37,067 nucleotides of DNA from positions 1 through 37,067 of IMG/VR virus record IMGVR_UViG_3300029448_007991; one strand, 5' to 3'. The notes beneath the pieces were generated by a model. It was not told the origin of the DNA. It made no database searches and was given only the letters and a program-made list of their open reading frames with translations. Shown piece by piece: positions 795 to 30,132 of the stretch. Both the position numbers and the translations under genes were made by a program. Source of the stretch: a virus. Each line of letters starts with the position of its first letter. Within the stretch, counting starts at the first letter, position 1.

Positions 795-800
795 TAAATA
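793..800 (+). promoter_or_regulatory. T4-type late promoter octamer AATAAATA
   Basis: The octamer differs from the T4 late consensus TATAAATA at one position. It overlaps the stop codon of the upstream gene and lies 7 nt before ATG 808, so transcription would start at about the start codon. No Shine-Dalgarno sequence lies between. Confidence 0.6.
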
Positions 801-807
801 TGCTTAT

Positions 808-1164
808 ATGAGAGCATCACAATTCATTTCAGAGCAAATAGACTCAGACGCAGTCAACGAGCTGGATACGTATATCATGAACAATGAAGACCTGTATCGT
901 AGACGTTTCATGCCGATCATTTCAAACATCAAGAGAAAAGTAGCAAAGAACGTGTACGATCACGAGAAGGCACAGAAACTTTGGATGTACCTCGTGGATG
1001 ATGCCGCAAAGGAGTACGTCAAAGAGTTTGGATCAACACAAGACGATGTCAGCAACATGTTTCCAAAGGAAACAAGACAACAGGTTGCGAGAGTCATATC
1101 AGACAGAGAACTAGAAAACATAAAACAAGGCGAGTACGATGCACCTCAGGGAACTGTTTCTTAA
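808..1164 (+). CDS. Putative head-internal protein with capsid-targeting-like N-terminus, 118 aa
   Basis: The protein begins MRASQFISEQ. This matches the pattern of T4 internal-protein capsid-targeting peptides (basic residue, hydrophobic FI, then I-S-E at residues 7-9, which fits the gp21 protease rule [L/I]-x-E). The rest is helical and charged, with a region like YRRRFMPIISNIKRKVAKNVYD at residues 30-51. No enzymatic motif is visible. It lies directly under a late octamer and overlaps the next gene by 26 nt. The family is unknown to me; packaging in the head is inferred from the N-terminus and late expression. Confidence 0.7.
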   Translation: MRASQFISEQIDSDAVNELDTYIMNNEDLYRRRFMPIISNIKRKVAKNVYDHEKAQKLWMYLVDDAAKEYVKEFGSTQDDVSNMFPKETRQQVARVISDRELENIKQGEYDAPQGTVS

Positions 1165-2317
1165 GGAAGACGATCGTTCAACAGCAGTCTTTGCCTTTGG
1201 CCGATTTAATCCTCCCACAATAGGACACGAAAAATTAATTCAGAAGGTACAATCAACGGCCGCAAACGTGAACGGCAAGGGATATGTTTTCCTTTCACAG
1301 ACAGGTGGCACAGAAAAAGACCCATTAGATTTCACAACAAAATTATCATACCTAAGACAGCATTTCCAATCAGATCCTAAATTATCCTTTGGTGATATCA
1401 GGGCAAACACGATAATCAAAGTGATGAAACTGCTTGAGGCAGAAGGTAGAACAAAAGTTATAATGATAGCCGGTGACGACAGAGTCATGCAGTTCCAGAA
1501 ATTGCTTAACCAGTACAATGGCCAACCAACCAAGGCTGGTAATGTTGAATACACATTTGACAGCATACAAGTGATCAGTGCAGGACAGAGAGATCCAGAT
1601 GCAGATGACATCACCGGTGTGTCGGCATCAAAGGCCAGAGAGCTTGCCATGAAAGGTCAGGAACATGAATTCAGTAAAATTGTCATGGGTGGAGACAATG
1701 GTAAAGTTTTGTATGATAAGATTCAAGATCAATTTGGTAAGCAAGTTGACGAAAACAACAAAAAGTTGTATAATGAAGACATGGAAGACGCGAAGCCAAC
1801 TGTATATCTTGACATGGACGGAGTACTGGCAGACTTCTTTGGTGGCATTGAAAAGATGTACGGAGTAGAAAACTGGAAACAACTTACAAACGATAAAACA
1901 AAAGATCTCAAAAAAGAAGTTATTGACAGGATAACCGGCACAGACTTCTTTGCAACACTACCTAAATTCCAAACAGCAGATGCTTTGATAGATATGGTCA
2001 AGAAATTCACAGGCGGCACATTTAGTATTAACACATCACCTTTACGTGGTGATCACGAAAACTCAGGCAAATACAAGAAAGTATGGATTTCGAATAACAT
2101 CGAAAAGCCAGCAGAGATAATTGTTACTGGTAGGAAAGAAACATACGCCAAGGATAAAGGAACAGGAACACCTAACATCCTTATAGACGACAGGCCTGTA
2201 AACATACAAAAATGGCAATCGGCCGGGGGATACGGCATCCTATATCAAGCAAACAGGGATTCACTTAACAAAGTAAAACAAGCACTTGATCAATATGGAA
2301 AAGCCGATGAATCATAG
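1139..2317 (+). CDS. Bifunctional nucleotidyltransferase - HAD phosphatase fusion, 392 aa
   Basis: Residues 16-190 form a cytidylyltransferase-like (NMNAT/NadM-type) domain. The nucleotide-binding GRFNPPTIGH is at 21-30 (the T/HxGH motif), and GVSASKARE near 160-168 corresponds to the family ISxxxxR motif. Residues 220-385 form a HAD domain with DMDGVLADF at 225-233 (D225 nucleophile, D227 acid/base) and LIDDRP near the end, most like 5'(3')-deoxyribonucleotidases. The combination suggests NAD- or nucleotide-related metabolism; the substrate is not known. The N-terminus MHLRELFLKED looks like a capsid-targeting peptide with LKE at 8-10. The start overlaps the preceding gene by 26 nt. Confidence 0.85.
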   Translation: MHLRELFLKEDDRSTAVFAFGRFNPPTIGHEKLIQKVQSTAANVNGKGYVFLSQTGGTEKDPLDFTTKLSYLRQHFQSDPKLSFGDIRANTIIKVMKLLEAEGRTKVIMIAGDDRVMQFQKLLNQYNGQPTKAGNVEYTFDSIQVISAGQRDPDADDITGVSASKARELAMKGQEHEFSKIVMGGDNGKVLYDKIQDQFGKQVDENNKKLYNEDMEDAKPTVYLDMDGVLADFFGGIEKMYGVENWKQLTNDKTKDLKKEVIDRITGTDFFATLPKFQTADALIDMVKKFTGGTFSINTSPLRGDHENSGKYKKVWISNNIEKPAEIIVTGRKETYAKDKGTGTPNILIDDRPVNIQKWQSAGGYGILYQANRDSLNKVKQALDQYGKADES

Positions 2318-2981
2318 GTTCGTGCATTTTGGACCTGTACTTGCGGCAACTACTGTTGACTCAACATTACTGAAAGAACTGCTCGACAGGGGCAACAAGA
2401 CCACAGAATCACACGTCCAGCACCTTGCAGGACATTTAGAAACAGAAAACAAATTCACAGTCGACGACATGGTGTGGTTCGTTGATAACTTTGGAAAATA
2501 TTTTGTTCCATACTTTAAGAAATTACAAACCGAAGAAGACAATAGTTACTATTATGGCATGAAGCCTTTCAACAGGGTTCTACTGCAAAGTTTGTGGATC
2601 AATTTCATGCAAAAGAATGAATTCAACCCCCCACACAGACACGGCGGTGCGTTTTCATTTGTTGTTTATCTCGATGTGCCAAAAAATATACAACAGGAGA
2701 ATATAGATTTCAAAGGACAGGGAGTAGGACCCGGAGCAGTAAGTTTCTATTATGGCGAAGAACAAGTAGGTATAAAGACAGCCCATGCGATTGTGCCAGT
2801 CACAGGAGACCTTTGGATGTTTCCTGCTTCACTAAAACACATGGTACCACCTTTCAAATCTGACGTCACCAGAATTTCAGTATCTGGAAACTTTTTTATT
2901 ACAGATCAATTAAATAGAAAAGCACCTATACAAAAAGGAGAATTTTTAATCGACAACCAGAAGGAGACAATAAATGCCTAA
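2295..2981 (+). CDS. 2-oxoglutarate/Fe(II) oxygenase-like protein
   Basis: The core PPHRHGGAFSFVVYLDVP, the segment MFPASLKHMVPPF and the end motif VTRISVSGN match the double-stranded beta-helix of phage 2OG-Fe(II) dioxygenases. Candidate iron ligands are the His residues of PHRHGG and LKHMV, and the Arg of TRISV would bind 2-oxoglutarate. Such enzymes hydroxylate proteins or small molecules; the substrate here is unknown. The frame extends upstream to a TTG at 2286. ATG 2295 or ATG 2307 is more likely the start, and all of them overlap the previous gene slightly. It ends overlapping the next gene. Confidence 0.8.
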   Translation: MEKPMNHRFVHFGPVLAATTVDSTLLKELLDRGNKTTESHVQHLAGHLETENKFTVDDMVWFVDNFGKYFVPYFKKLQTEEDNSYYYGMKPFNRVLLQSLWINFMQKNEFNPPHRHGGAFSFVVYLDVPKNIQQENIDFKGQGVGPGAVSFYYGEEQVGIKTAHAIVPVTGDLWMFPASLKHMVPPFKSDVTRISVSGNFFITDQLNRKAPIQKGEFLIDNQKETINA

Positions 2982-3153
2982 ATTTAGCGGAATAAACAGA
3001 CCTTACGCTACAGGTGAAATACCCAAAACGCCACAAGAGCTACAAAGAGAATTAGACGAAAAAATGAAGAAGTTCCTGGCCAAGGGTGGCAAGGTGGAGA
3101 AAGTTAAAGCACACAAACCTACCAAGCAACAGTTGAAGGATTGGACTATCTAG
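2974..3153 (+). CDS. Small basic protein, 59 aa, unknown function
   Basis: ATG 2974 follows an AGGAG Shine-Dalgarno at about 2962 and overlaps the upstream stop by 8 nt. The 59-residue product starts MPKFSGINRPYATGEIPKTP, continues as a charged helix (QELQRELDEKMKKFLAKGGK) and ends at TAG 3153. It is lysine-rich like other proteins of this region, so a head-associated role is possible. No known family is recognised. Confidence 0.6.
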   Translation: MPKFSGINRPYATGEIPKTPQELQRELDEKMKKFLAKGGKVEKVKAHKPTKQQLKDWTI

Positions 3154-3359
3154 TGGACGAGTTAGAGAGGATAAAGCAATTGGCAGGTGTGGCTAACACA
3201 CAAGAGCCATCAATGGGAGAAAACCTCTCTTACACAGGCACAGAAAAAGCAAAATATCAGAGAAAGCACAACATAAGATCGGGTTCAGATGAGTGGTTTA
3301 AATTATGGTTCGCAAGACCGAAACTCACTGGCGAGAACCCAATGCCCAAAAACAAATAA
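3141..3359 (+). CDS. Small phage protein with TTG start, 72 aa
   Basis: The frame starts with TTG at 3141 inside the end of the previous gene and gives MDYLVDELERIKQLAG. The acidic amphipathic N-terminal helix is followed by a basic region (KAKYQRKHNIRSGSDEWFKLWFARPKLTGENPMPKNK). The overlap suggests translational coupling. The helix-plus-RSGSDEWFKLWFARP layout suggests a small virion or packaging-related protein, but no function can be assigned. A late octamer overlaps its last codons. Confidence 0.6.
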   Translation: MDYLVDELERIKQLAGVANTQEPSMGENLSYTGTEKAKYQRKHNIRSGSDEWFKLWFARPKLTGENPMPKNK

Positions 3360-3362
3360 ATA
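3355..3362 (+). promoter_or_regulatory. T4-type late promoter octamer AATAAATA
   Basis: The octamer overlaps the stop codon of the upstream gene and ends 8 nt before ATG 3371 of the superoxide dismutase gene. This places sodC and the following overlapping genes under late transcription. Confidence 0.6.
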
Positions 3363-3370
3363 CTCGCAAT

Positions 3371-4105
3371 ATGCGAGCCAAAGAATTCACAGAAACAAGT
3401 TGTCCTAGAACACGAGCCAAAGAATGCACGTGTGAGCAAATTAACACAATTACCGAAGCACAAGACACTGTGGTTGCACAGTGTATGTTGGAGCATTCTG
3501 ACACCGTTAAGGGGTCAATCCTGCTTATACAGGCACCAGGAACAGCAACACTGATAAAAGGCACCATCACAGGACTAACACCTGGAGAACACGGTTTCCA
3601 TATACACGAATTTGGCGACATGTCAGATGGTTGCAAGTCAATGGGTGGACATTACAATCCCGATGGCGTTGACCATGGAAGCATAGATGAAGGACATGTG
3701 GGAGATCTTGGTAACATAACAGCCGACAAATCAGGTATAGCAAAATTCACAATCCAAGCAAAAAGAGTTGACCTTATAGGCGAACGTTCTGTAATAGGAA
3801 GAGGATTTGTTGTCCACTCAGACAAAGATGATTTAGGCAAGGGTGGAGATGCAGAAAGTTTGAAAACGGGTAACGCAGGTGACAGGTTGGCCTGTGGAGT
3901 CATCGTTACAAGGTCCGAAGAAATGAAAGAAGCACATGGCGGAGAACACAGCTCAACAGGCAGGAGCATGACCAAAAGTGAAAAAGGTAAAAGAGAAAAA
4001 ATTGTTAAGGGCATGAAAAAAGACAAAGCAGGATTTAAAAAGAGATATGGCAAAGACGCAGAAGCAGTGATGTATGCCACAGCAACAAAACAAGCGATGA
4101 ACTAA
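3371..4105 (+). CDS. sodC: Cu/Zn superoxide dismutase with capsid-targeting-like N-terminus and basic tail, 244 aa
   Basis: Residues 31-180 are a full Cu/Zn SOD domain. Expected copper ligands are H77, H79, H94 and H149, zinc ligands H94, H102, H109 and D112, and C88/C175 can form the conserved disulfide, so it should convert superoxide to H2O2. The frame is open upstream to 3305, but ATG 3371 just after a late octamer is the likely start. The N-terminus MRAKEFTE is not a secretion signal. It resembles a capsid-targeting peptide, and I-T-E at 27-29 would allow gp21-type cleavage just before the SOD domain. Residues 200-244 are a lysine-rich tail (KKDKAGFKKRYGKDAEAVMY) of a kind seen on other marine phage proteins. 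Confidence 0.93.
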   Translation: MRAKEFTETSCPRTRAKECTCEQINTITEAQDTVVAQCMLEHSDTVKGSILLIQAPGTATLIKGTITGLTPGEHGFHIHEFGDMSDGCKSMGGHYNPDGVDHGSIDEGHVGDLGNITADKSGIAKFTIQAKRVDLIGERSVIGRGFVVHSDKDDLGKGGDAESLKTGNAGDRLACGVIVTRSEEMKEAHGGEHSSTGRSMTKSEKGKREKIVKGMKKDKAGFKKRYGKDAEAVMYATATKQAMN

Positions 4106-5040
4106 TGAAATTCATAATATTCAACGGCACACTAAAACCCGACGCAGAGTCAAACACTTCCGCAGTGTGTAAGATGTTGCAACTGGCATTTCAGAAAATA
4201 GGTGATGAGTGTGAAATCGTAACCCTAAGAGATCTTAAGTATGAAGCAGTTACAAAAGACGTGGATGACGAATTAAAACCTCACATCATGGACATATTCA
4301 AAAGTGATGGCATCGTATTCGCAACACCTATATGGTGGGGCGGACACAGTTCCCACATACAGTCAATGTTCCAGAGACTTGATCCAATATACAGTTGGGG
4401 GAAAGACAACAAGTATCAACCCTTCTACAACAAAGTTTTTGGCACACTGGTTTCAGGAGGAGGCGATGGATTCCAACACATACATGGAAACTGTTACAAC
4501 TTTGCAACAAACCTAGGTTTCACTGTGCCACCTAGTTGTAACATTGAATCTAAAGCACAAGGCATGGACGAAATCATAGATGACCAACAGACCCTGGACC
4601 AGGTGAAAAACTGTGCAGTGAATATGTCTACTTGGGCAAAAGTACTTAAAGAAGGCAATCCAACAATTAATGCAAGGCACGGTACAGTCGATGTAAGTTC
4701 AGTTGGTGGAGAAACAGATTATGCTTTCAGTGACAGTGTTAATGAAGGCAAAAGGATACCACGAAAAAAAGGACAAAAAGCAAAATCTAAAAAACACAGC
4801 GACTTGTACACAGACGAAGATCCAAAAGGCACAATACATGGACTAGGCTTCAAGGACGATGCAAGTGCAAAAGCAAGTGTCACAAAGATAAGAAAGTCCG
4901 GACGTTCACATGCACACAAGATACAGGCCGCAGTGGCAATGGAGCAAAGAGCGAAAGCGGCAGGAAAGTCAGGGCCGGCGGCCATTTACAGAAAATTCAT
5001 TAACTCAATGAAGAAAAAGACCAAAGCAAAAAACAAATGA
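4105..5040 (+). CDS. Flavodoxin-fold NAD(P)H/FMN reductase fused to basic phage module, 311 aa
   Basis: The first 185 residues have the flavodoxin-like fold of NADPH-dependent FMN reductases: beta strand MKFIIFNGTLKPDAESNTSA with the phosphate-binding loop, ATPIWWGGHSS near 73-83 and TLVSGGGDGFQ near 114-124. It should bind FMN and reduce quinones or flavin. From about residue 210 the protein becomes a lysine/histidine-rich module (HSDLYTDEDPKGTIHGLGF, then KSGRSHAHKIQAAVAMEQRA and KKKTKAKNK) that recurs in marine phage proteins and could bind DNA. It begins on the last base of the sodC stop codon, so the two genes are coupled and may act in the same redox task. Confidence 0.8.
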   Translation: MKFIIFNGTLKPDAESNTSAVCKMLQLAFQKIGDECEIVTLRDLKYEAVTKDVDDELKPHIMDIFKSDGIVFATPIWWGGHSSHIQSMFQRLDPIYSWGKDNKYQPFYNKVFGTLVSGGGDGFQHIHGNCYNFATNLGFTVPPSCNIESKAQGMDEIIDDQQTLDQVKNCAVNMSTWAKVLKEGNPTINARHGTVDVSSVGGETDYAFSDSVNEGKRIPRKKGQKAKSKKHSDLYTDEDPKGTIHGLGFKDDASAKASVTKIRKSGRSHAHKIQAAVAMEQRAKAAGKSGPAAIYRKFINSMKKKTKAKNK

Positions 5041-5264
5041 GAATTAAAGAGATACTAGCCACAAAATACGTGCATCCGGACGTAGACAAGATGCTTAACA
5101 AATACCAGAGACAGGCCAAGGGCAGGGCCACAATGGGCTATCATTCAAGCATGGCATACCCATACAGGGTTGAGGGTTGGAGTAAAAAATACAAAAAGTC
5201 GATCAACTGTAGCAATCCAAAAGGATTTAGCCAGAAGGCCCACTGTGCAGGTAAGAAAAAATGA
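5037..5264 (+). CDS. Small basic Cys-containing protein with capsid-targeting-like N-terminus, 75 aa
   Basis: It begins MRIKEILATKY, matching the N-terminal pattern of nearby genes, and ends with SINCSNPKGFSQKAHCAGKK, a two-cysteine lysine-rich motif that I recognise as recurrent in marine phage proteins. The overlap with its upstream neighbour is ATGA. The high charge and absence of catalytic motifs point to a nucleic-acid-binding structural or internal head protein. No clear [L/I]-x-E site follows the N-terminal motif. Confidence 0.7.
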   Translation: MRIKEILATKYVHPDVDKMLNKYQRQAKGRATMGYHSSMAYPYRVEGWSKKYKKSINCSNPKGFSQKAHCAGKKK

Positions 5265-6052
5265 AGATACGAGAATTCATAATAATGCCACACACGGCAG
5301 ACACAATGGGTCTCATACACAAACCCGGAACAGGCCCAAACAACAGATTTGGTTTTAAAAATCACAGCAACAACAGAGCAAACGAGATTGAAAAAGAAGA
5401 AGCCGCGGGTGTTGGCATAGTGACCAAACAGAACGCCACAAAGGATGTTCCTGTGGGTGGTGAGTACATGAATGTAAAGAAATTGGGATTGGGCAAGGGC
5501 AAGCCAAAAACAATGAAAGAAGAATTTGCTGAATTCCTAGAAAACATTGATCCAAAAGTGTGGACTGAACTACGGGCAAAAGGACTCGTGAGGCCAATGC
5601 ACTTTGATAGTCCCGAGGTCAGAGCGGCATACAAAGAAAAAGGACTACCTTACAAACCCGACATCAGTATTATCACCAAAGATAACTTGGATCAGTTTAG
5701 AACAAAAGAGCCGGAGAGATTAAAACAATTGAAACCAATCCAAGTAAGTGATCAGCAGTGGATTAATTACATGGATAAGTGGTGGAGGACTGAAAGGTTG
5801 AAACCTAAGGCAAAAGATAAAGTGCAACAGATAAAAAATGCCTATAAACTTTTATATAAAAAAGATATGGTGGAGAACTTCGCAGATGGTAAAAAGAAAG
5901 GCAAGAGCAGACCAGGACGTGTTAAACGTGCAGGTGCCAGTTGCAAAGGATCCGTAACAAGTTTGAGAAGCAAAGCGAAAAAAGCCAGCGGTGAACGAGC
6001 TAAGATGTACCACTGGTGTGCCAACATGAAGTCCGGCAGGAAAAAAAAATAA
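5261..6052 (+). CDS. Putative internal head protein with basic cysteine tail, 263 aa
   Basis: It begins MKIREFIIMPH, again the region's N-terminal pattern. Residues 80-95 contain a second similar segment, KTMKEEFAEFLENIDP. The middle is helical and charged. The last 55 residues are a strongly basic module with three cysteines (RVKRAGASCKGSVTSLRSK, then ASGERAKMYHWCANMKSGRK; the third Cys is absent in some copies of this module elsewhere, which I cannot check here). ATGA overlap with the gene before. Likely virion-associated and DNA-binding; function otherwise unknown. Confidence 0.7.
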   Translation: MKIREFIIMPHTADTMGLIHKPGTGPNNRFGFKNHSNNRANEIEKEEAAGVGIVTKQNATKDVPVGGEYMNVKKLGLGKGKPKTMKEEFAEFLENIDPKVWTELRAKGLVRPMHFDSPEVRAAYKEKGLPYKPDISIITKDNLDQFRTKEPERLKQLKPIQVSDQQWINYMDKWWRTERLKPKAKDKVQQIKNAYKLLYKKDMVENFADGKKKGKSRPGRVKRAGASCKGSVTSLRSKAKKASGERAKMYHWCANMKSGRKKK

Positions 6053-6080
6053 TCAAGTCATTTACCTGAATAACTAGTTT

Positions 6081-6782
6081 ATGCCTTATACCTTGGGTAT
6101 ATCCATTGAATACTACAAATACAAGCACGATGCTATCATGAGAATTTTTGCGGATAATCGCTTGATTGACGAAGTTTCTTTAGACAATCATGTAAAATTA
6201 AAATGTATTAATCTGCAAGGGGTGCCAGACTTTAAGCATGATTGCGGCCCCCTTAATCTTAGTCGCGTTATGTTCGTACCTGAAAAAATTTTTACCTATC
6301 GTATTGATGAACAATACCTAAAGAAAAAATTAAGAATCGAGATAAAAAACGATAACAACAATTACACAAATGGATTTATGACTGATTATTCATATATCAA
6401 TTTCCATCGAATATTTCTTATACCAGAATCTTTATTAGAGGAATCGGGTTGGTCTCGCCTGAACAAATTTGATAACCGATTTGTAAAGTGGCACGCTGAT
6501 ATACAATATTTTCCGCATGATTTTAACGAGCTCCTTTATGTTCCAAATCACAATAGTTCATATCCATATGAGAATTTGCCCGACAAAGGCAAGGTGATAA
6601 AAAACGATTCACAGCATAATTTGTATTACACAAAGAGAGGCGGTAGTTTTTCTGTACAAATAGAATTAAGTAAAAAGCACAACATCACCCATCTTGGAAA
6701 ACCACGGCCAGGAAAGATGTACCTTGCCCGTAAAGTAGAACGTTTGTTATGGGCTTACGGTCTGCTAAATATTACTAAATGA
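6081..6782 (+). CDS. Beta-rich protein of unknown function, 233 aa, possible acquired gene
   Basis: The protein alternates short hydrophobic strands (LGISIEYYKY, AIMRIFADNRLIDEVSL, LRIEIKND) in a way similar to the N-terminal domains of 312-794 and 14316-15386, and may be a carbohydrate-binding-like sandwich. The base composition looks more T-rich than the genes around it, with runs such as GCATGATTTTAACG, and it interrupts the series of proteins with capsid-targeting-like starts. It overlaps the next gene by ATGA. No family recognised. Confidence 0.6.
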   Translation: MPYTLGISIEYYKYKHDAIMRIFADNRLIDEVSLDNHVKLKCINLQGVPDFKHDCGPLNLSRVMFVPEKIFTYRIDEQYLKKKLRIEIKNDNNNYTNGFMTDYSYINFHRIFLIPESLLEESGWSRLNKFDNRFVKWHADIQYFPHDFNELLYVPNHNSSYPYENLPDKGKVIKNDSQHNLYYTKRGGSFSVQIELSKKHNITHLGKPRPGKMYLARKVERLLWAYGLLNITK

Positions 6783-7051
6783 AAATAAGCGAAGTAATCA
6801 TACGTAGAGTGCAGGAACAGGCAACTGCCGGCGCCACAAGTGCGGGTAACATAGCAACTGTAACTTCACCACACATTGCCATAGGCAAGGACAGGGGCAA
6901 CAAGGCCTACACAGGAACACCTGGCAGGTCAGGCACAAGAGCACCTAGATTACCAAAAATTGTACAACCAAAAAATCCAGACGGTACCGCCAAAGGTGCA
7001 CACAATTTACCTGGCGTTAACCTAATGGGTGGACCACTGGTAAAGAGATAA
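6779..7051 (+). CDS. Small Gly/Pro-rich protein with capsid-targeting-like N-terminus, 90 aa
   Basis: MKISEVIIRRVQEQ at the start fits the regional motif, with V-Q-E at 11-13 as a weak gp21-type site. The rest is low-complexity, Gly/Pro/Ala-rich and basic (AGATSAGNIATVTSPHIAIG, PGRSGTRAPRLPKIVQPKNP), suggesting an extended, unfolded internal head or DNA-associated protein. ATGA overlap upstream and TAATG overlap downstream show coupling. No enzymatic motif. Confidence 0.7.
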   Translation: MKISEVIIRRVQEQATAGATSAGNIATVTSPHIAIGKDRGNKAYTGTPGRSGTRAPRLPKIVQPKNPDGTAKGAHNLPGVNLMGGPLVKR

Positions 7052-7212
7052 TGCAAACTTTAATTTTGAAAAAAGATTGGATAGTCAAATGCCTAAACTG
7101 CGGACACGACGCACACGACAGGCCATTATACAGGACCGAGAAGGACTACGACGGCAGAGAGTACCAAATAGAGGTGTGTAGGCACTGCAGGTACGAAGAC
7201 GAAGCCGCCTAA
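7051..7212 (+). CDS. Small zinc-ribbon protein, 53 aa
   Basis: The ATG overlaps the previous stop (TAATG). The product has CLNCGH at residues 14-19 and CRHCRY at 43-48, a classic two-knuckle zinc ribbon, so it should bind zinc and perhaps nucleic acid. It starts MQTLILKKDW and ends EDEAA. The following gene begins right after its stop codon. The role is unknown; small zinc ribbons are common among phage transcription or recombination accessory proteins. Confidence 0.65.
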   Translation: MQTLILKKDWIVKCLNCGHDAHDRPLYRTEKDYDGREYQIEVCRHCRYEDEAA

Positions 7213-7782
7213 ATGATCTATGTATGCGGAGATAGTTTTGCGGCAGGTGATCCAGAGAGCAAAATAAAACCTTGGCATGAACAATTGACGTGTACTAATC
7301 TCGCACGGACAGGAGCAACAAACACCCAAATAAGTCAACAGGTAGACCATGCACTGGAAAATGCAAGTTTTATTGTTGTGCTTTTTACGACATGCACCCG
7401 TTTCGAATACGGCCCAAATGATTATTACACTTTACATAACGTGGCTAGAAGCAATCTTACTAAAATACAACAAGACATAGTTACAGAACATGCAAAACAT
7501 TTTTTTGATTTAGAATTGGAAATATACAAAAACAAGTGTATAATAGAAAGTGTATTACAACGATTAGTTGACAGTGAAATTCCATTTTTATTTGACCAAG
7601 GTGGATTCGAACATCCAAAATTTGGAGTTTCGGAAAAATATTTTGGAAAATACAATGCATATCGAAGTGGGTATAACTTATGGGACTGGGGAGATAGTAA
7701 AGTATATAGGCCTTATTTTCATATCACAGATCAAAATGTACACAACAAAATAGCAGATTATTACCGTAAACAAACACTATAA
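7213..7782 (+). CDS. SGNH/GDSL-type hydrolase, 189 aa
   Basis: The N-terminal strand runs into CGDSFAAGD, the block I motif with the nucleophile Ser at residue 8. ARTGATNTQISQQV near 34-47 fits the glycine-containing block II. Near the C-terminus DQNVH (D173, H177) supplies the usual DxxH pair. It is probably an esterase or acetyl-hydrolase acting on a sugar or lipid ester; substrate unknown. ATG 7213 follows the previous stop directly. Composition is T-rich compared with the surrounding genes. It is one of three SGNH-like proteins in this window. Confidence 0.75.
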   Translation: MIYVCGDSFAAGDPESKIKPWHEQLTCTNLARTGATNTQISQQVDHALENASFIVVLFTTCTRFEYGPNDYYTLHNVARSNLTKIQQDIVTEHAKHFFDLELEIYKNKCIIESVLQRLVDSEIPFLFDQGGFEHPKFGVSEKYFGKYNAYRSGYNLWDWGDSKVYRPYFHITDQNVHNKIADYYRKQTL

Positions 7783-7796
7783 GCCATCTGTGAGAA

Positions 7797-7804
7797 CATA
7801 AATA
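7797..7804 (+). promoter_or_regulatory. T4-type late promoter octamer CATAAATA
   Basis: Seven of eight positions fit TATAAATA. It is intergenic and ends 5 nt before ATG 7810, with no ribosome binding site in between. Confidence 0.6.
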
Positions 7805-7809
7805 TTGAT

Positions 7810-8160
7810 ATGAAAGTTAATGAAGTATTAAGAGAAGGCGCAGATTTTTACGGTTACTACAAAGATCCCAAAGATCCAGAAGGTAGAACAATGACATACC
7901 CAAAAGATATGGAATTTAAGACACCACACAGATCAAATGCAAACGCAAGAATGTTGCTATCAAGGATAGGATTAGATCCAGACTTTGAAAACACAGGTTC
8001 TACACCAATAGATAATTTCCTTGGCGCAACAGACAAATATCTAAGAATGAATGTTAGCGACAAAGACGATCCATTCTACGACGAAGTAGAAATGTACGAC
8101 ATGGAAGCAAAGAGATTCAAAAAAGAACATCCAGAAATTACACACGTGGGATTCAATTAA
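7810..8160 (+). CDS. Putative head-internal protein with capsid-targeting-like N-terminus, 116 aa
   Basis: It starts MKVNEVLREGADFYGYYKDP: the regional motif followed by L-R-E at residues 7-9, a good gp21-type cleavage site. The remainder is acidic and soluble (DKDDPFYDEVEMYDMEAKRF) with no enzymatic signature. It is the first gene behind a late octamer, and the next gene follows after one base. Family unknown; virion location inferred. Confidence 0.7.
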   Translation: MKVNEVLREGADFYGYYKDPKDPEGRTMTYPKDMEFKTPHRSNANARMLLSRIGLDPDFENTGSTPIDNFLGATDKYLRMNVSDKDDPFYDEVEMYDMEAKRFKKEHPEITHVGFN

Positions 8161-8161
8161 A

Positions 8162-9370
8162 ATGAAGTTCAACGAATTACAGCACATACAAAAACCTCAA
8201 CCAGAGCCAGACACATATGAGGCAGGCATGGCCCAAAACCAATTGCTCAAGATTGGATCACACGCAGTAAGATTGCATAACATGTTGGACGATGACCAGG
8301 AGATGGAATCATGGGTGGCCAAGAAGATCGACCTAGCATCAAACTACGTGAAGAGTGTACACGGTTACACAGCAGGACAGAAGGCAGGCACATACGACGA
8401 CGATGGCATGTCAGAAGAGAAAGAATGTCCCCCGGGACAGTACTACTGCAAGATGTCAGGCAAGTGTAAACCAATACAGGAAGACGCCTCTGGTTTCAAA
8501 TTGGTTTCACAAGCAAAAGACATAGCCAAAAAGATGGCGGGCAATTACACCGGTGCTGTGAGACAGATTGAGAAACTACAGAAAGATCTATCAAACAACA
8601 GTTCAGTGAAACAGGCACTACTACAATTCAACGAAGACGCAGGCGAGGGACACATGAGCAAGAGCCAGTTGTACCAGACTGCGAAAATGGCGATAGAATT
8701 ATTAGACATGATTAAAAAAGGTGATGACCTGGAGGGTTGGGTGCAGACCAAACTTAATCTAGCGGCGGACTACCTACAGGCAGTGTACCACTACGAGGAC
8801 TACCAGAAACTTAATCCATACAGGGAAGATCTTGACAGTGCATTGATGCAAAGACACGCAGGTGTGATACAGAAGCATCTAGATGAGATATTGGCTAAAG
8901 AAACAAAGACAGCGGACGTTGACACCAAACCTGGCATGATGCGAATACTGAAAAAGAGAGTGAACGAAGTTGAAAAAGAAATAGCCAAAGAGAACAGGAA
9001 AGAATCAGAACAGACATCTGAAGCAATAGATCTAGAAGAAGGCATAAAAGAATGGGGCAAAAGATTAGCAATGGCAGGAGTCATTGTGGCAGGATTGGCC
9101 GGAGTCAACTCGATCAACAACGCAATAGACAATTCTGTACCGGCAATCAGTGCAATGAACACTGCATTAGAGATGGCACAGGACTCTGGCAACACAGAAT
9201 TGGCAAAAATGATTGAAAAAGACCTATCAGATGCCAAAGTTAGACTGAGTTCTGGCAAAGATCTCGGTGCTGTGGCAGACATGCAGGACAAGTACGCAAA
9301 ATTCATGAAGACAGAAGGCTTGGCCTATGAGTCAAGACTGTTAGTAAGCCTAAAACAACAACTTAAATAA
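8162..9370 (+). CDS. Large helical protein with internal repeat, likely virion-associated, 402 aa
   Basis: The start MKFNELQHIQ fits the regional N-terminal pattern. Two copies of a helical repeat are visible, around residues 28-70 (LLKIGSHAVRLHNML, then ESWVAKKIDLASNYVKSVHGY) and 169-216 (LYQTAKMAIELLDMI, then EGWVQTKLNLAADYLQAVYHY). A cysteine-rich insert CPPGQYYCKMSGKCKP lies near 90-105. A hydrophobic Gly/Ala stretch near residues 300-320 may insert in a membrane or form a buried helix. I know similar repeats from marine T4-like phages, where function is not established. Confidence 0.7.
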   Translation: MKFNELQHIQKPQPEPDTYEAGMAQNQLLKIGSHAVRLHNMLDDDQEMESWVAKKIDLASNYVKSVHGYTAGQKAGTYDDDGMSEEKECPPGQYYCKMSGKCKPIQEDASGFKLVSQAKDIAKKMAGNYTGAVRQIEKLQKDLSNNSSVKQALLQFNEDAGEGHMSKSQLYQTAKMAIELLDMIKKGDDLEGWVQTKLNLAADYLQAVYHYEDYQKLNPYREDLDSALMQRHAGVIQKHLDEILAKETKTADVDTKPGMMRILKKRVNEVEKEIAKENRKESEQTSEAIDLEEGIKEWGKRLAMAGVIVAGLAGVNSINNAIDNSVPAISAMNTALEMAQDSGNTELAKMIEKDLSDAKVRLSSGKDLGAVADMQDKYAKFMKTEGLAYESRLLVSLKQQLK

Positions 9371-9382
9371 AACTGTAACAAT

Positions 9383-9390
9383 TATAAATA
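9383..9390 (+). promoter_or_regulatory. T4-type late promoter, perfect TATAAATA
   Basis: An exact match to the T4 late consensus in the short gap between genes. It ends 6 nt before ATG 9397, where the expected start site of transcription would be. Confidence 0.75.
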
Positions 9391-9396
9391 CTTCAT

Positions 9397-10227
9397 ATGA
9401 GCACATCAGACAACAGTTTCGCAGACCTAGTAAAGAGATTAAACGCAATGAGTAACCTTACTCCGGAAGAAGAACGTGCATCTTTGATGGAATCTGTTGG
9501 AAAAGCACCTAAAGTGCTAGATGACAAAGAAGTAACACTTTCAGATATTGCCAAATTAGCAGGTATCAAGGAATATGTAGAACCTGTAAAGCATTCAAAA
9601 AAAGCAGAAGCACTAGTTGAGTCAATCACTGCACCACAGAGTTCAATATCAAAAGCGATAGCGGAATCAGACGCTGATGATTCTATTGCCACTTCAATCA
9701 AGAAAGAAGTGAATGAAGAAGTAAACAGACTAGACAAGATAGCAGAACTAGAGGCACAGTTGGCAGAACTGAAGACGGAACAAAAAGAAGAACAGACATA
9801 TGACTCAAAATCATTCAGAGAAGTTATCACAAAGGATATCGCGGAGTACATCAAAGGCGCGGAAGACACTGCTCTCGTGGAACTTTACAACACAATCTCA
9901 GACAATGAAGCAGTTTACAATGAAGAATCATCAAACATTCTCATCAAGACTCCAGAGACTACTGAGATCATAGCAGACGCTGAACAGGCCGAAGCACCAG
10001 CAGAAGAAGTTCTTGCAGATGCAGAAGCAGACAAAAGAAATATGCAAGAGCCACACTCACCAGAGAAAGACGGTGAAGAGGACGCAGAAGACAAATCCGA
10101 CGAAAAAGACACAGACGGCGAAGTGGACATATTAGACCCAGAGTTTGACGAAGGTGAAGAAGTAGAAATAGAGGCACCTGCAGAAGACAAGTTCACAAAC
10201 GACCTAGATCCAGCAGACAAAAAATAA
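9397..10227 (+). CDS. Very acidic, partly coiled-coil protein, 276 aa
   Basis: The N-terminal half is helical, with a likely coiled coil around residues 105-130 (NEEVNRLDKIAELEAQLAEL). From about residue 185 it is dominated by Glu, Asp and Ala (PAEEVLADAEADKR, EDAEDKSDEKD, DEGEEVEIEAPAED). It has no cysteine or catalytic motif. It sits alone under a perfect late promoter. The acidic, low-complexity nature recalls scaffold or prohead core proteins, but there is no direct evidence for that. Confidence 0.65.
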   Translation: MSTSDNSFADLVKRLNAMSNLTPEEERASLMESVGKAPKVLDDKEVTLSDIAKLAGIKEYVEPVKHSKKAEALVESITAPQSSISKAIAESDADDSIATSIKKEVNEEVNRLDKIAELEAQLAELKTEQKEEQTYDSKSFREVITKDIAEYIKGAEDTALVELYNTISDNEAVYNEESSNILIKTPETTEIIADAEQAEAPAEEVLADAEADKRNMQEPHSPEKDGEEDAEDKSDEKDTDGEVDILDPEFDEGEEVEIEAPAEDKFTNDLDPADKK

Positions 10228-10235
10228 TCTAAAAA

Positions 10236-10243
10236 ATTAAATA
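10236..10243 (+). promoter_or_regulatory. T4-type late promoter octamer ATTAAATA
   Basis: Six of eight positions fit TATAAATA, including the conserved TAAATA core. It lies 5 nt before ATG 10249, in the 21-nt gap after the preceding gene. Confidence 0.5.
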
Positions 10244-10248
10244 AGTGT

Positions 10249-10890
10249 ATGCAACTACACTTGACCGACAACAAGTTCAATACGGATCCGTATTGGAAAG
10301 AGCGTATCACAAACGTGTTCGCATGTCCGCCAAAAGAGGTGGTGGCAATGTTCGACCAAAACGGGTATGATCTCACAAGACTAGAACAGATGTATGCGGT
10401 GGCCAACGGAGCGGAGACCACCAAACACAGGAACAGTGAACACATCACATTGAGAAAAAATTGGTTCACATCAGATGACACCGAGCAAGGTCCACACATC
10501 AACCATGCGTACATGTTTGAGCGTAAGGGCTATTCAGGTGATGCCTTAGAGCAACTTACAGCATGGGCCGAATACAGACCACACTTCCATAAACTTATAG
10601 CCATGAGACCCAAGTGGGGACTTGATTTCAGCATAGACTACTGTGACAGGCAGGGCAACGTGTTGGAACTGCTTCACTGGGAGTACGACGGGTTCGACTA
10701 CAACGAAGTGGCCACAAAGAAAGAGATCATGGACGAGTTCCTTTTAAACCAAGACTGGGACGAACGGGCACAGACCATGCTGGAACGCAAGGATGAATGG
10801 CATAAACTGGGCTTTTTTGAACAGAGCGAGTGGAAAACTAAATTCTTTGGCATTGACAAAGAACGTTTCAAGATGGTGCTGTGGAAATAA
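10249..10890 (+). CDS. Conserved-type phage protein of unknown function, 213 aa
   Basis: A globular protein rich in Trp, His and aromatic residues (HKLIAMRPKWGLDFSIDYCD, LELLHWEYDGFDYNEV). It has no signal peptide or membrane segment and no catalytic motif that I recognise. The region RKNWFTSDDTEQGPHINHAYMF is notable for its density of aromatic and polar residues. It has its own late octamer upstream and another overlapping its stop codon, so it is probably transcribed as a single late unit. Confidence 0.65.
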   Translation: MQLHLTDNKFNTDPYWKERITNVFACPPKEVVAMFDQNGYDLTRLEQMYAVANGAETTKHRNSEHITLRKNWFTSDDTEQGPHINHAYMFERKGYSGDALEQLTAWAEYRPHFHKLIAMRPKWGLDFSIDYCDRQGNVLELLHWEYDGFDYNEVATKKEIMDEFLLNQDWDERAQTMLERKDEWHKLGFFEQSEWKTKFFGIDKERFKMVLWK

Positions 10891-10893
10891 ATA
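10886..10893 (+). promoter_or_regulatory. T4-type late promoter octamer AATAAATA
   Basis: It overlaps the stop codon of the upstream gene and ends 6 nt before ATG 10900. Seven of eight positions match the T4 consensus. Confidence 0.6.
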
Positions 10894-10899
10894 CTGCAT

Positions 10900-11820
10900 A
10901 TGAGCTCAATACCTTACAACTACAAGCCATACATAGATGCTAAAGTGTCAATGACTGACAACGGAACTGTGGATGCAGGCCGACAGATGCAGTCCCCAGC
11001 AAGTGCAGGTAGCAGAGGGATGGCAAAAACAATGCAATTCTCAAAGAATAAAACACAGATGCAGTTGGGACAAGAAACCATAGCAGAATCAATGGTTGAG
11101 ATCAGAAGTATACTAAACAGGATCGACGGTGTGAACGCACCGGTGCAGGAAGACGCAGGCGAGAAGATTGCCAACATGGCACAGAACATGACCAAAGACC
11201 AGTTCATGAGTCATGCTGATGAATTAGGTTTAACTCCAGAAGAGGCCGCGGAACACTATGAAAAAATGCAGGGCGGTGCACACGTACAGGAAGCACCAAA
11301 ACAAAGCGATATAGATTACACAAAATTAATGTTAGATATTTCGGCTATGAAAGACAGGATAGCAGAACTGCCTATAGACGATGACGCAAAAACATCGGCT
11401 CTCACAGCATTGGGACAGGTTGAAGACGACCTATCAATGGATGAACACGAGTATACACCATTCCCAGAAGGTGATGAGTTTGACATTGAAGAGGACGAGG
11501 ACTTCGAAGAAGTGTTAGGTCCATTAGGTTTTCCAGAAGACGAGACGGAATTATTTGACGCAGAGTACCAAGGAAGAAAAGTTCCACTTAACAAACCAAT
11601 GAGAGGTGATGTTAAAAAATTTAAAGTTTACGTTAAAGATCCAAAAACCGGCAACGTTAAAAAAGTTAACTTCGGACATGGTGGTACAAGTGCAAAAAGA
11701 CCAACTATGAGAATAAGGAAGTCAAACCCGAAAGCAAGGAAAAGTTTCAGGGCAAGACACAACTGTGCAAACCCAGGTCCAAAAACAAAAGCAAGATATT
11801 GGTCTTGCAGGAAGTGGTAA
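10900..11820 (+). CDS. Acidic protein with basic DNA-binding-like C-terminal module, 306 aa
   Basis: Residues 1-215 are acidic and helical with a strongly acidic stretch near 185-215 (EGDEFDIEEDEDFEEVLG). From residue 225 the character flips to a basic module: YQGRKVPLNKPMRGDVKKFK, then VKKVNFGHGG, RKSFRARHNCANPGPKTKAR and the end YWSCRKW. I recognise this module as recurrent in marine phage and some large-virus proteins; two cysteines could bind metal. It does not carry the capsid-targeting-like start. It heads a late unit with the next three overlapping genes. Function unknown; likely virion or packaged-DNA associated. Confidence 0.7.
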   Translation: MSSIPYNYKPYIDAKVSMTDNGTVDAGRQMQSPASAGSRGMAKTMQFSKNKTQMQLGQETIAESMVEIRSILNRIDGVNAPVQEDAGEKIANMAQNMTKDQFMSHADELGLTPEEAAEHYEKMQGGAHVQEAPKQSDIDYTKLMLDISAMKDRIAELPIDDDAKTSALTALGQVEDDLSMDEHEYTPFPEGDEFDIEEDEDFEEVLGPLGFPEDETELFDAEYQGRKVPLNKPMRGDVKKFKVYVKDPKTGNVKKVNFGHGGTSAKRPTMRIRKSNPKARKSFRARHNCANPGPKTKARYWSCRKW

Positions 11821-11821
11821 C

Positions 11822-12022
11822 ATGTTTGGCTGGTTAAAGAAAGTTTTTAGTGCTGGCGGAGACTCAGTAGCAGAACCAAAGAGAGCTAGGGACAAAGGCA
11901 GATACAAAGCAGACGACAAGTCCACTCCAGATGTAAATGAAGCATGGGAAGGTGGCAAGGCGCCCATGACTGCAAAACAAAAAAGGATAGCGGCAAAAAA
12001 AGCACTTCTAGGAAGAAAATGA
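11822..12022 (+). CDS. Small basic protein, 66 aa
   Basis: The frame is open upstream to 11765, but ATG 11822, just after the previous stop codon, is the natural start: MFGWLKKVFSAGGDSVAEPK. The C-terminus is lysine-rich (MTAKQKRIAAKKALLGRK). The N-terminal amphipathic segment FGWLKKVF could associate with a membrane or another protein. It ends overlapping the next gene by 4 nt (ATGA). Function unknown. Confidence 0.6.
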   Translation: MFGWLKKVFSAGGDSVAEPKRARDKGRYKADDKSTPDVNEAWEGGKAPMTAKQKRIAAKKALLGRK

Positions 12023-12204
12023 AAGTAAACGAAGTTTCAGGAATCACAGAAGAACAATTTGATGTATTGGCGGAAAAGAAAGATGCCTGCTATCACAAAG
12101 TCAAAGCAAGATACAAAGTATGGCCTTCGGCCTATGCCTCTGGTGCTCTAGTACAGTGTCGTAAAAAGGGTGCGGCCAACTGGGGTAACAAGAGCAAAAA
12201 ATGA
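12019..12204 (+). CDS. Small Cys/Lys-rich protein with capsid-targeting-like N-terminus, 61 aa
   Basis: ATG 12019 (not the further-upstream in-frame ATG at 11944) gives MKVNEVSGITEEQFDVL, the regional motif with I-T-E at residues 9-11 as a candidate gp21 site. The remainder is a compact module CYHKVKARYKVWPSAYASGA followed by LVQCRKKGAANWGNKSKK, which resembles a basic, two-cysteine module common in marine phage proteins. ATGA-type overlaps on both sides. Likely packaged DNA-binding protein; inference only. Confidence 0.7.
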   Translation: MKVNEVSGITEEQFDVLAEKKDACYHKVKARYKVWPSAYASGALVQCRKKGAANWGNKSKK

Positions 12205-12953
12205 AGATAAACGAAATACAAGAAGGATCTGACAGAGAATATCTCAATCTTCCAAAGGAAGACATCGAGAGATTACGGGCAAAGTTCCTTCCAGATTGGG
12301 AGTACAAGGATAACAGCCTGCAGAAAAGATACAAGTTTGAAGATTACTTCGAAGTGATCAGATTCCTGATCAACACAATAAAGCCTCAAGAAAAACTAGA
12401 TCACCATGCGGACCTTGGTGTGTTCTATGATGAGGTCCTAGTGAAAATTTACACGCACAGGACAAATGACGTTTCCGATTACGATTTCATGGTAGCCATG
12501 CAAATGGACGCGATAGCGAAAATGAAACATGGTGCAATAAATCCCAACTACGATCTAAACGCATTGGTCGACGAGGGCACTAGATGTTGGAAGGGCTACA
12601 CCAAGAAGGGCATGAAGACCATGTTCGGTAAGAGAGTGCCCAACTGTGTCAAAAAAGAACACGTTGACTTTTGTGTAAACTGCGGAGACATAGTGTTAGA
12701 TGAGTCGCTGAATGAGAATCTCAAAAAATGGTTCAAAGACAAATGGGTAAGAGTTGGACCAAAAGGAAAAATTAGAGGTGCATGCGGTGGCAAGAGCAAA
12801 GGCGAAGGTAAACCCAAATGCTTACCAGCCAAGAAAGCATATGCACTAGGTAAAAAGGGTAGGGCAAGTGCGGCCAAAAGGAAGAGAAGAAAAGATCCTA
12901 ATCCCAACAGACGTGGTAAAGCAATAAACGTCAAAACTAAAAAGAAAAAATAG
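12201..12953 (+). CDS. Multi-module basic protein with capsid-targeting-like N-terminus, 250 aa
   Basis: It starts MKINEIQEGSDREY, with I-Q-E at residues 6-8 fitting a gp21 site. Residues 15-125 are a folded acidic domain without recognised motif. Then come basic modules: CWKGYTKKGMKTMFGKRVPN near 133-152, a cysteine pair CVNCGD near 161-166, and the final RGACGGKSKGEGKPKCLPAK, then KRKRRKDPNPNRRGK and a poly-Lys end. This tail pattern recurs in marine phage proteins and suggests nucleic-acid binding. Last gene of a coupled four-gene late unit. Confidence 0.72.
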   Translation: MKINEIQEGSDREYLNLPKEDIERLRAKFLPDWEYKDNSLQKRYKFEDYFEVIRFLINTIKPQEKLDHHADLGVFYDEVLVKIYTHRTNDVSDYDFMVAMQMDAIAKMKHGAINPNYDLNALVDEGTRCWKGYTKKGMKTMFGKRVPNCVKKEHVDFCVNCGDIVLDESLNENLKKWFKDKWVRVGPKGKIRGACGGKSKGEGKPKCLPAKKAYALGKKGRASAAKRKRRKDPNPNRRGKAINVKTKKKK

Positions 12954-23294: not shown

Positions 23295-23849
23295 ATGAAA
23301 GTACCATATACTAACTTTAAAACAAGAACAGGTGACACTGACGAAGTCGGCGGTTGCACATTTATAGGTGGTGAATGGAAAGACGTTGATACAACGGAAA
23401 TATTTGACAATAAAGTGGTTGTTGTGTTTGCACTTCCAGGAGCATTTACACCAACGTGTTCCAGCCAACAAGTTCCAGGGTTTGAAAAAAAGTATAACGA
23501 GATGAAAGCAGAGGGTGTGAACGAAATATACTGCTTATCAGTCAATGACTCATTTGTAATGAACGCATGGTTTAAAGACACTAATATTAAAAAGGTAAAA
23601 CCAATAGGAGATGGCGAAGGTGTGTTCACACAAGGAATGGGCATGTTAGTCAACAAGCCAGGGCAAGGTTTTGGAATGAGATCTTGGAGATACTCCATGA
23701 TAGTTGAGAATGGCAACATTGTAAAAGTGTTTGAGGAGCCAGGTAAAAATAACTCAAGTGATGACAATGATCCATTCGAAGTATCTGACGCTCAAACGAT
23801 TTTAAACTATCTAAGGAGCCATGAATGGTCGCATAGGAACGATGAGTAA
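23295..23849 (+). CDS. Peroxiredoxin, Prx5 type, 184 aa
   Basis: The peroxidatic motif PGAFTPTCSS puts the reactive Cys at position 55, with the family Pro and Thr at 48 and 52. KYNEMKAEGVNEIYCLSVND, MGMLVNKPGQGFGMRSWRYS and the C-terminal NDPFEVSDAQTIL fit the Prx5/AhpC-TSA fold. It should reduce H2O2 and organic peroxides using thiols from the host. Length is near that of bacterial Prx5. It is transcribed with the deazaguanine and unknown genes and not with sodC, but the pair could act in sequence on superoxide then H2O2. Confidence 0.9.
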   Translation: MKVPYTNFKTRTGDTDEVGGCTFIGGEWKDVDTTEIFDNKVVVVFALPGAFTPTCSSQQVPGFEKKYNEMKAEGVNEIYCLSVNDSFVMNAWFKDTNIKKVKPIGDGEGVFTQGMGMLVNKPGQGFGMRSWRYSMIVENGNIVKVFEEPGKNNSSDDNDPFEVSDAQTILNYLRSHEWSHRNDE

Positions 23850-25635: not shown

Positions 25636-26629
25636 GGGCCTAAGCAAAGCAGTATTAGTCACGGGCGGAGCAGGATATGTGGGTTCACATACTTGCAAGT
25701 TCCTAGCCAAGAATGGCTTTACACCAATAACCATAGACCGAGACCTTAAGACCAAGTTTAAACCAGTGAACTTTGGGCCTAGTTTTGACATAAACCTACC
25801 GCAGGAGATAGAACGACTTGAAGAGATAATAAAACGTTTCAACATTACAAGTTGTATACATTTTGCCGGCAGTGCCTCTGTTGCTGAGTCTGTGAAGAAC
25901 CCATCGGAATACTACAGGAATAATGTGATAACCACAGTAGTACTATTAGACAAGTTGATTGAATGTGGCGTTAAGACATTCGTGTACAGTTCTAGTGCGG
26001 CCACGTACGGTGATCCAGGATTTAGGAAGTGCAGAGAATCAGACGTTCCTAATCCTATCAGTGCATATGGTGGAAGCAAACTGATGATGGAGATGATCTG
26101 CAAAGATTATCTGAGAGCATACGGACTTTCTAGTGTTGGTCTGAGATATTTCAATGCCGCTGGCGCAGATCCAGAAGCAGAAGTAGGGGAATTGAGAGAA
26201 AACGAAACACACATAGTACCTTTGGCCATTGATGCCGCGAGACAGGGAAGAACATTCAAGATGTTTGGTGACAAATACGACACACCAGATGGATCTTGTG
26301 TCAGAGATTACGTCCACGTTATGGACCTAGCAGATGCACACGTCAAAGCATTGAATTATGCATCAGCAAATCCTGTATCTGAAGTATTCAACCTGGGATC
26401 AGGTGCACCAGCATCTAACAAAGAACTTCTAAATGCAGTGCAAAAACATGTAGGCGAAATGAAAATTGAGATACACGACAACAGACCAGGTGATCCTGCA
26501 TACTTGGTGGCAGACATAGACAAGGTAAAGAAAGAGTTAGGTTGGGATCCAGCACAGAGTTCAATTGACAACGTGGTGGCGACTGCTGTACAATGGTATA
26601 ATAAGACACACAAGAAGGAAATACAATAA
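25592..26629 (+). CDS. galE: UDP-glucose 4-epimerase (GalE-like), 345 aa
   Basis: A complete short-chain-dehydrogenase-type epimerase: NAD-binding TGGAGYVGSH at 24-33, catalytic Ser in YSSSAATYG at 132-140 and the YxxxK pair Y159/K163. LRYFNAAGADP and VRDYVHVMDLADAH follow, both typical of GalE. It interconverts UDP-glucose and UDP-galactose. The first 19 residues before the fold overlap the preceding glycosyltransferase gene by 44 nt; no closer start is available except non-standard ATT. Ends coupled to folE. Confidence 0.93.
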   Translation: MEDTTGHQFQKPSIEGLSKAVLVTGGAGYVGSHTCKFLAKNGFTPITIDRDLKTKFKPVNFGPSFDINLPQEIERLEEIIKRFNITSCIHFAGSASVAESVKNPSEYYRNNVITTVVLLDKLIECGVKTFVYSSSAATYGDPGFRKCRESDVPNPISAYGGSKLMMEMICKDYLRAYGLSSVGLRYFNAAGADPEAEVGELRENETHIVPLAIDAARQGRTFKMFGDKYDTPDGSCVRDYVHVMDLADAHVKALNYASANPVSEVFNLGSGAPASNKELLNAVQKHVGEMKIEIHDNRPGDPAYLVADIDKVKKELGWDPAQSSIDNVVATAVQWYNKTHKKEIQ

Positions 26630-27342
26630 TGAGCGAAGATATTTTAAAAGATAGTTGGGTACCCGAAGGGCCAATCAGTAAAACTATAAAAGACAGGCTA
26701 AAGAAAGCAGGCAAGAGATTCCATTCCAATGACAACATCTCAGAATACATAGAAGATGGTGAGATGGATCAGTTGCAGGCAGAGGTGCAGGAAAAACTGC
26801 AAGGTGTATTAGACAGCCTAGTAATTGACACAGAAAACGATCACAACACACAGGAGACCGCGAAACGTGTGGCAAAAATGTACATCAGAGAAACATTTGG
26901 GGGCAGATTCAAACCAGCACCTAGGGTTACAAGTTTCCCTAACATGGGGTACAAGAGCATGTACACTAGTGGTCCAATATCAATTAGATCAACGTGTGCC
27001 CATCACTTCCAGAACATTGTGGGCAAGGCATGGGTTGGCATCATCCCCAACGGAGAAGTAATTGGATTGAGTAAATTCAATAGGATCGTACATCACATCG
27101 TGGAACGACCACAAATACAAGAGGAGATGACAACTCAGATTGCAGATGAATTGAAAAAATATGCCAAGACTGAGAATCTTGCAGTAGTTGTAAAAGCAGA
27201 ACATCACTGTATGACGCATAGGGGCGTCAGAGAACACGAATCTGACATGACTACGGCAATTATGCTAGGTGCATTCAAAGATGATCCTGCCACAAGAGAT
27301 GAATTTTACAAAATCTGTATGAGTATGAAGGGTCATGGCTAA
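26629..27342 (+). CDS. folE: GTP cyclohydrolase I (FolE), 237 aa
   Basis: Zinc ligands C123 and H126 in STCAHH and C194 in HHCMTHRGV are all present, as is the core VGIIPNGEVIGLSKFNRIVH. It converts GTP to dihydroneopterin triphosphate, the first step of folate and of 7-deazaguanine (queuosine/archaeosine-type) synthesis. In this window, with dpdA, queE and a yhhQ-type gene, the second role is likely. An AAGGA ribosome binding site precedes ATG 26629. The N-terminal 45 residues are an extension absent from the catalytic core. Confidence 0.95.
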   Translation: MSEDILKDSWVPEGPISKTIKDRLKKAGKRFHSNDNISEYIEDGEMDQLQAEVQEKLQGVLDSLVIDTENDHNTQETAKRVAKMYIRETFGGRFKPAPRVTSFPNMGYKSMYTSGPISIRSTCAHHFQNIVGKAWVGIIPNGEVIGLSKFNRIVHHIVERPQIQEEMTTQIADELKKYAKTENLAVVVKAEHHCMTHRGVREHESDMTTAIMLGAFKDDPATRDEFYKICMSMKGHG

Positions 27343-29447: not shown

Positions 29448-29460
29448 ACTAAAGGTTGTA

Positions 29461-29489: not shown

Positions 29490-29522
29490 TACGGACATTT
29501 AAATTAACCTATAGGAGATTAA

Positions 29523-30131: not shown

Positions 30132-30132
30132 T

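Follow-up and report, generated by a model that had tools for sequence, protein, structure and literature searches.

The window analysed here, i.e. the whole 37,067 nt stretch of the IMG/VR virus record IMGVR_UViG_3300029448_007991, contains on its plus strand a genuine open reading frame (ORF, 3371–4105) which is confirmed as a Cu/Zn superoxide dismutase (SOD) of the eukaryotic type; this rests on sequence and model comparisons, and dismutase activity is inferred. While the open frame reaches further 5' to an upstream ATG at 3305, we placed the start at the Met at 3371, because relatives have an equivalent start Met and because of the ATAAATA box in front of it (Table 1). The protein matches the full-length Pfam Sod_Cu domain (PF00080, positions 1–133 of 133, E = 3.5e-44), its best-matching solved structures are eukaryotic SOD1 proteins, its electrostatic loop (DDLGKGGDAESLKTGNAG) has the eukaryotic form, and AlphaFold models the core (residues 33–180) as an ordered barrel. 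The Cu ligands (H77, H79, H94 and H149), Zn ligands (H94, H102, H109 and D112), the disulfide pair C88 and C175 and the active-site R172 are invariant in the 39 aligned phage relatives, which agrees with the complete set of metal ligands claimed in a preliminary description of this stretch; the absence of a secretion signal, also claimed there, was supported by inspection by eye, which found neither a signal peptide nor a hydrophobic signal, so that the protein does not look like a secreted bacterial SodC. Bacterial or prophage SodC was rejected as nearest kin, with 31% identity for Gifsy-2 SodC and at most 45% for the sampled alphaproteobacterial SodC proteins (full-length alignments), versus 53–55% for human and bovine SOD1. 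The rejection is based on identity, loop and the cysteine motif described below, without a tree; the bacterial relatives L110–L112, which are SodC proteins from MAGs, do carry a signal peptide, are 47–52% identical over 120–124 aa, and have neither the eukaryotic-type loop nor the cysteine motif.

Searches of IMG/VR gave at least 247 relatives of the window SOD (159 in another search), and no close relative was found among cultured phages in the phage collection searched. Clustering of the SOD ORFs to at most 85% identity between representatives resulted in 50 representatives. The SOD-carrying relatives appear to be marine T4-like phages: all three SOD contigs holding a head module (3/3) encode gp23 together with a Peptidase_S77 (gp21-type) prohead protease, while neither was found in ten other SOD contigs searched, as expected of fragments. 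Since the window, a fragment of 37 kb, includes no head genes itself, the gp21-type protease of its phage is inferred from these relatives. The DNA polymerase is T4/jumbo-like, with best matches of about 50% identity. Phage contigs are binned in MAGs named Pelagibacter, Rickettsiales and Betaproteobacteria, but as bin names are weak evidence, no host is claimed. On the two long contigs G001 and G002 (221 and 172 kb), ORFs resembling A-type iron-sulfur carriers (...CGCG...) were seen by eye near the SOD gene (68683–69015 and 77196–77531, respectively).

Table 1. Features of the SOD gene and surrounding gene cluster in the window (a slash marks a predicted cut; CTS, capsid targeting sequence)
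Position	Strand	Feature	Basis
808..1164	+	Cluster protein, CTS-like start MRASQFISE/Q, ATAAATA box	
1139..2317	+	Cytidylyltransferase/NMNAT + 5'-nucleotidase protein, start MHLRELFLKE/D; T4-GC190 homologue	
3356..3362	+	ATAAATA, T4-type late promoter core, ending 8 nt 5' of SOD start	Placement
3371..3397	+	Capsid-targeting-like start MRAKEFTET, pattern M-x3-[EDQ]-[FILMVY]	Shared by representatives
3401..3433	+	Cysteine pro-motif CPRTRAKECTC = C-x-R-T-x4-C-x-C (C11, R13, T14, C19, C21)	Alignment, motif search
3449..3460	+	Predicted gp21-type cleavage site ITE/A, residues 27–29/30, E29/A30 (nt 3449–3457/3458)	Site conservation, model
3458..3931	+	Predicted mature Cu/Zn SOD, A30–E187, eukaryotic SOD1 type, ligands intact	Pfam, structure matches, alignment, AlphaFold
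3923..3934	+	Predicted second cleavage site MKE/A, residues 185–187/188, enzyme/tail border	Site conservation
3932..4102	+	Lysine-rich helical tail module AHGGEHSS...KREKIVKGMKKDKAGFKKRYGKDAEAVMYATATKQAMN, residues 188–244	AlphaFold, relatives
4105..5040	+	FMN reductase-like enzyme, overlaps SOD stop codon; SVNE/G + basic tail module	
5037..5264	+	Small basic module protein, CTS-like start MRIKEILAT	
5261..6052	+	Basic multi-module protein, CTS-like start MKIREFIIM, contains MVE/NFADGK	
6779..7051	+	90-aa ORF, CTS-like start MKISEV, then VQE/QATAGATSAGNIAT	
7810..8160	+	CTS-like start MKVNEVLRE/G, ATAAATA box	
8162..9370	+	Protein with CTS-like start MKFNEL	
9397..11820	+	Three cluster ORFs (9397, 10249, 10900); ATAAATA boxes 5' of 9397 and 10900	
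12201..12953	+	Pterin-4a-carbinolamine dehydratase, CTS-like start MKINEIQE/G, lysine-rich basic tail	

The start pattern of the SOD precursor is present in 33/35 stand-alone SOD representatives, compared with 6.4% of internal Met residues, and resembles the capsid targeting sequences of T4, short propeptides at the N-terminus which gp21 cuts (PMC9026906). It is short and degenerate, and many SODs lack a clean site immediately behind it. Within the window, CTS-like starts are confined to the gene cluster at approximately 800–12,500 (8/21 ORFs vs 0/35 ORFs in the remainder). With regard to the predicted cleavage sites, an [ILV]xE sequence is located 4–5 residues past the last Cys of the CxC pair in all 50 representatives and has a small or polar residue directly behind it (the background for the [ILV]xE site is about 2% per position), and the close relative L017 has a Met in the hydrophobic position of this N-terminal xE site. 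At the other border, C-terminal extensions are present in 16 representatives, and in each of these (16/16) an [ILVM]xE lies no more than 18 aa from where the enzyme ends, compared with 23% of background windows. Both predicted cuts fall within linkers which are disordered in the AlphaFold model (residues 17–29 and 183–197, pLDDT below 50), and the tail behind the second site contains a helix (residues 202–243). This tail module also trails other proteins in relatives, and is present in Synechococcus phage BUCT-ZZ01. In T4, gp22 is the scaffold degraded by gp21; the gp22 proteins of SOD phages contain 3.4–4.1 gp21-type sites per 100 aa (ITE/A in one), and their gp23 proteins have LAE/A, LQE/T or LSE/Q ahead of the conserved N-terminus. 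As the start pattern, the cleavage site and the tail junction all recur in divergent relatives, we do not regard them as chance similarities. The capsid-targeting-like peptide, the possible gp21 site before the enzyme, the mature start near residue 30 and the lysine-rich tail put forward in the preliminary description have thereby all gained support, while its reading of the pro-region holds for the CTS-like start but not for a targeting peptide alone, as an SOD-specific C-x-R-T-x4-C-x-C motif lies inside. This motif, the MKE187/A188 site and the polyprotein setting were all absent from that description.

The ATAAATA sequence is found five times in the window, always on the plus strand (794–800, 3356–3362, 7798–7804, 9384–9390 and 10887–10893) and each time 5–8 nt upstream of the start of a cluster gene (808, 3371 for SOD, 7810, 9397 and 10900), and there is none in the replication/nucleotide half of the window. 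Enrichment of the sequence in the window was considered and rejected (5 found vs 8.2 expected), and only its placement is striking. In the relatives, ATAAATA or [AT]AAATA is located just 5' of the start in 28/39 SOD representatives with a usable Met. A T4 late promoter query used previously was TATAAAT (PMC3037559), and from the promoter core we infer, in the absence of transcript data, that the SOD gene is expressed late. Leaderless late transcripts of the cluster genes are possible. On G001, many structural genes have 15–31 nt between box and start, versus the 5–8 nt seen in the window.

The SOD gene is surrounded by other genes with CTS-like starts and predicted sites (Table 1). The basic tail module of the FMN reductase-like protein is common to cyanophages and pelagiphage Mosig, while the multi-module protein at 5261–6052 had no cultured-phage match. 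The VQE/QATAGATSAGNIAT sequence of the 90-aa ORF is almost the same as the junction at which the gp23 pro-region meets the mature protein in SOD phages (YLSE/QATAGATSAGNVATLNR in L340), and the pterin-4a-carbinolamine dehydratase is probably a further cargo enzyme. The shuffled basic module NFADGK directly follows a Glu in each of its 23 distinct contexts, and in 21 of these the second residue ahead of the Glu is hydrophobic, while most of the surrounding sequence shows no other relationship; some module types, such as RARHNC, have no cleavage site. A cyanophage protein (L301, 7989–10115; S-SM2 SSM2_109, T4-GC119) is made up of the basic modules seen in the window cluster and additionally contains DUF192 and DUF6321. 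Outside the cluster, the window encodes a peroxiredoxin of the Redoxin family (23295–23849), which could clear the peroxide that SOD makes. The region 26629–31988 encodes a GTP cyclohydrolase, a QueE-like radical SAM protein and, judging by eye, a membrane protein resembling YhhQ, possibly representing a deazaguanine pathway for modified DNA.

In relatives, the SOD cassette is also found inside longer ORFs (2475 aa in L266, 2406 aa in L214, 1148 aa in L279, 1084 aa in L213, and others), and SOD thus appears to be a shuffled module which can form part of polyproteins as long as 2475 aa. Pfam partners in these fusions are CTP_transf_like, NT5C, DUF5661, DUF5824 and DUF6267, and in one relative a GH19-like domain, just below the Pfam cut-off. 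The two longest (L266 3633–11057 and L214 6118–13335) combine SOD with a ParB-like motif, and SOD is the sole domain recognised by Pfam in the L266 polyprotein. Such embedding in CTS-started polyproteins would not be expected of an ordinary auxiliary metabolic gene, for which the product would be a cytoplasmic SOD shielding the infected cell, the start and the [ILV]xE sequences would be incidental, and the basic tails would bind nucleic acid. Auxiliary metabolic genes are common in marine phages, and the missing secretion signal, the peroxiredoxin gene in the same window and the location of the SOD gene apart from the cargo cluster on G001 and G002 all fit with this explanation, but it leaves unexplained the T4-type late promoter core which directly precedes the SOD gene, both in the window and in the majority of stand-alone relatives, as well as the conservation of the sites at both enzyme borders, and we consider it unlikely.

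The cysteine motif in the pro-region is invariant in 39/39 aligned relatives and present in 119/119 viral SOD ORFs, while the two SODs without it are bacterial SodC proteins. A motif search of IMG/VR, and then of all loci, gave 134 distinct proteins, of which 129 have an SOD signature, one (L220) runs on into SOD-like sequence, and the remaining four resemble chance frames; no other ORF in the window, G001 or G002 contains the motif. A role as general capsid-targeting tag was rejected, since the motif is found only with SOD, and as it is missing from the other cargo proteins of these phages, a general targeting or docking function is unlikely as well. This also weighs on the possibility that the SOD is virion cargo which is neither cut nor assisted by the cysteines, where the motif would be a zinc knuckle or a prohead-core docking element and the SOD would remain fused or structural. 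The three invariant cysteines could bind zinc, and many forms have no clean site right behind the CTS-like start; against this, the [ILV]xE behind the motif is better conserved than other linker positions, and overall we give this possibility little credence. The motif itself is in a low-confidence part of the AlphaFold model. We propose, by analogy with domain III of the copper chaperone for SOD (CCS), the CXC of which is involved in transferring copper and in making the disulfide (PMC6383938), that the cysteine pro-region may aid metallation or disulfide formation of the SOD, an inference which we hold only tentatively. A structural component outside the head, i.e. a tail or baseplate protein decorated with SOD, is very improbable: a late promoter fits any structural gene and one relative has the fusion to a GH19-like domain, but the CTS-like start and the gp21-type sites relate to the maturation of heads, and the other SOD fusions have no tail domains.

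We consider it probable that the SOD of this marine T4-like phage is head cargo which is released by cleavage, with both packaging and cleavage inferred without virion proteomics. This reading is well supported, albeit only indirectly as there are no virion proteomic or SOD activity data for these phages, and is based on five independent lines: the CTS-like start, the predicted gp21-type sites flanking the enzyme, the late promoter core, the presence of a gp21-type protease and gp23 in SOD phages, and a neighbouring CTS-type gene with a cyanophage homologue that was detected in virions (PMC3037559). In the proposed sequence of events, the SOD precursor would be expressed late and be taken into the prohead core by its CTS-like N-terminus, where the C-x-R-T-x4-C-x-C pro-region may hold or transfer copper and/or aid formation of the C88–C175 disulfide in a host that lacks CCS. 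Inside the head, the gp21-type prohead protease would then cut after ITE29 and MKE187, thus releasing an active SOD1-like enzyme (A30–E187) from the pro-region and basic tail. The enzyme is further inferred to be ejected with the DNA, and would remove superoxide at the start of infection, while it may also protect the packaged DNA. The wider proposal, that one group of marine T4-like phages packs a set of enzymes into its heads as CTS-started polyproteins which are cut into modules by the prohead protease, and that the SOD module comes with a disposable in-cis substitute for CCS in the form of the cysteine motif, is more speculative, and we put it forward as a possibility which may well not hold in full. 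If true, an antioxidant enzyme is injected along with the phage DNA, giving superoxide a direct part in how ocean phages enter their hosts, head maturation proteases free active enzymes from polyproteins, and an SOD is able to bring its own removable metallation aid. As far as the open-licence PMC literature shows, the cysteine pro-motif and the polyprotein context of SOD have not been described, and nothing relevant was found there on Cu/Zn SOD of marine phages or on cyanophage prohead protease with polyproteins.

Finally, we compared the SOD with known systems. The Salmonella prophage SodC proteins (Gifsy-2 SodCI and Fels-1) are also phage-borne Cu/Zn SODs, but are of the bacterial type with about 31% identity to the window SOD, and we know of no virion-targeting features in these proteins. 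The T4 internal proteins IPI–III and Alt are basic head proteins with a targeting propeptide which is cut after Glu, and many are ejected into the host (PMC9026906). They share with the window SOD the short N-terminal propeptide and the cut after Glu in a short motif (predicted for the SOD), but include no SOD and no cysteine pro-motif, whereas SOD phages have the M-x3-[EDQ]-[FILMVY] start and several modules strung together. As in the phage pro-region, the CXC pair of CCS domain III is located on a flexible arm beside an SOD-like fold; however, it is C-terminal and acts in trans, whereas the phage motif lies N-terminally and in cis, and its removal by cleavage is predicted, and the phage SOD has no domain I (MXCXXC) and has kept all its active-site ligands, so that this remains an analogy only.

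The nearest experimental evidence for entry of cluster proteins into virions comes, by homology, from cyanophage S-SM1, where the cytidylyltransferase T4-GC190 was detected by mass spectrometry in purified virions (PMC3037559). We located its gene, the product of which has a CTS-like start (MKKFSAFLNE/A) and is 39% identical to the window protein at 1139–2317 over 162 aa, although this is a different enzyme from SOD and the alignment covers only about 160 aa. For SOD itself, the Cu/Zn SOD1 of PBCV-1 (A245R) is, like the window SOD, of the eukaryotic type, and both late expression and packaging into virions have been reported for it (PMC7019647). While PBCV-1 is a chlorovirus of a green alga rather than a phage, and none of the cited passages mentions CTS- or gp21-type processing of its SOD1, it is the best and closest precedent for a virion-packaged SOD.
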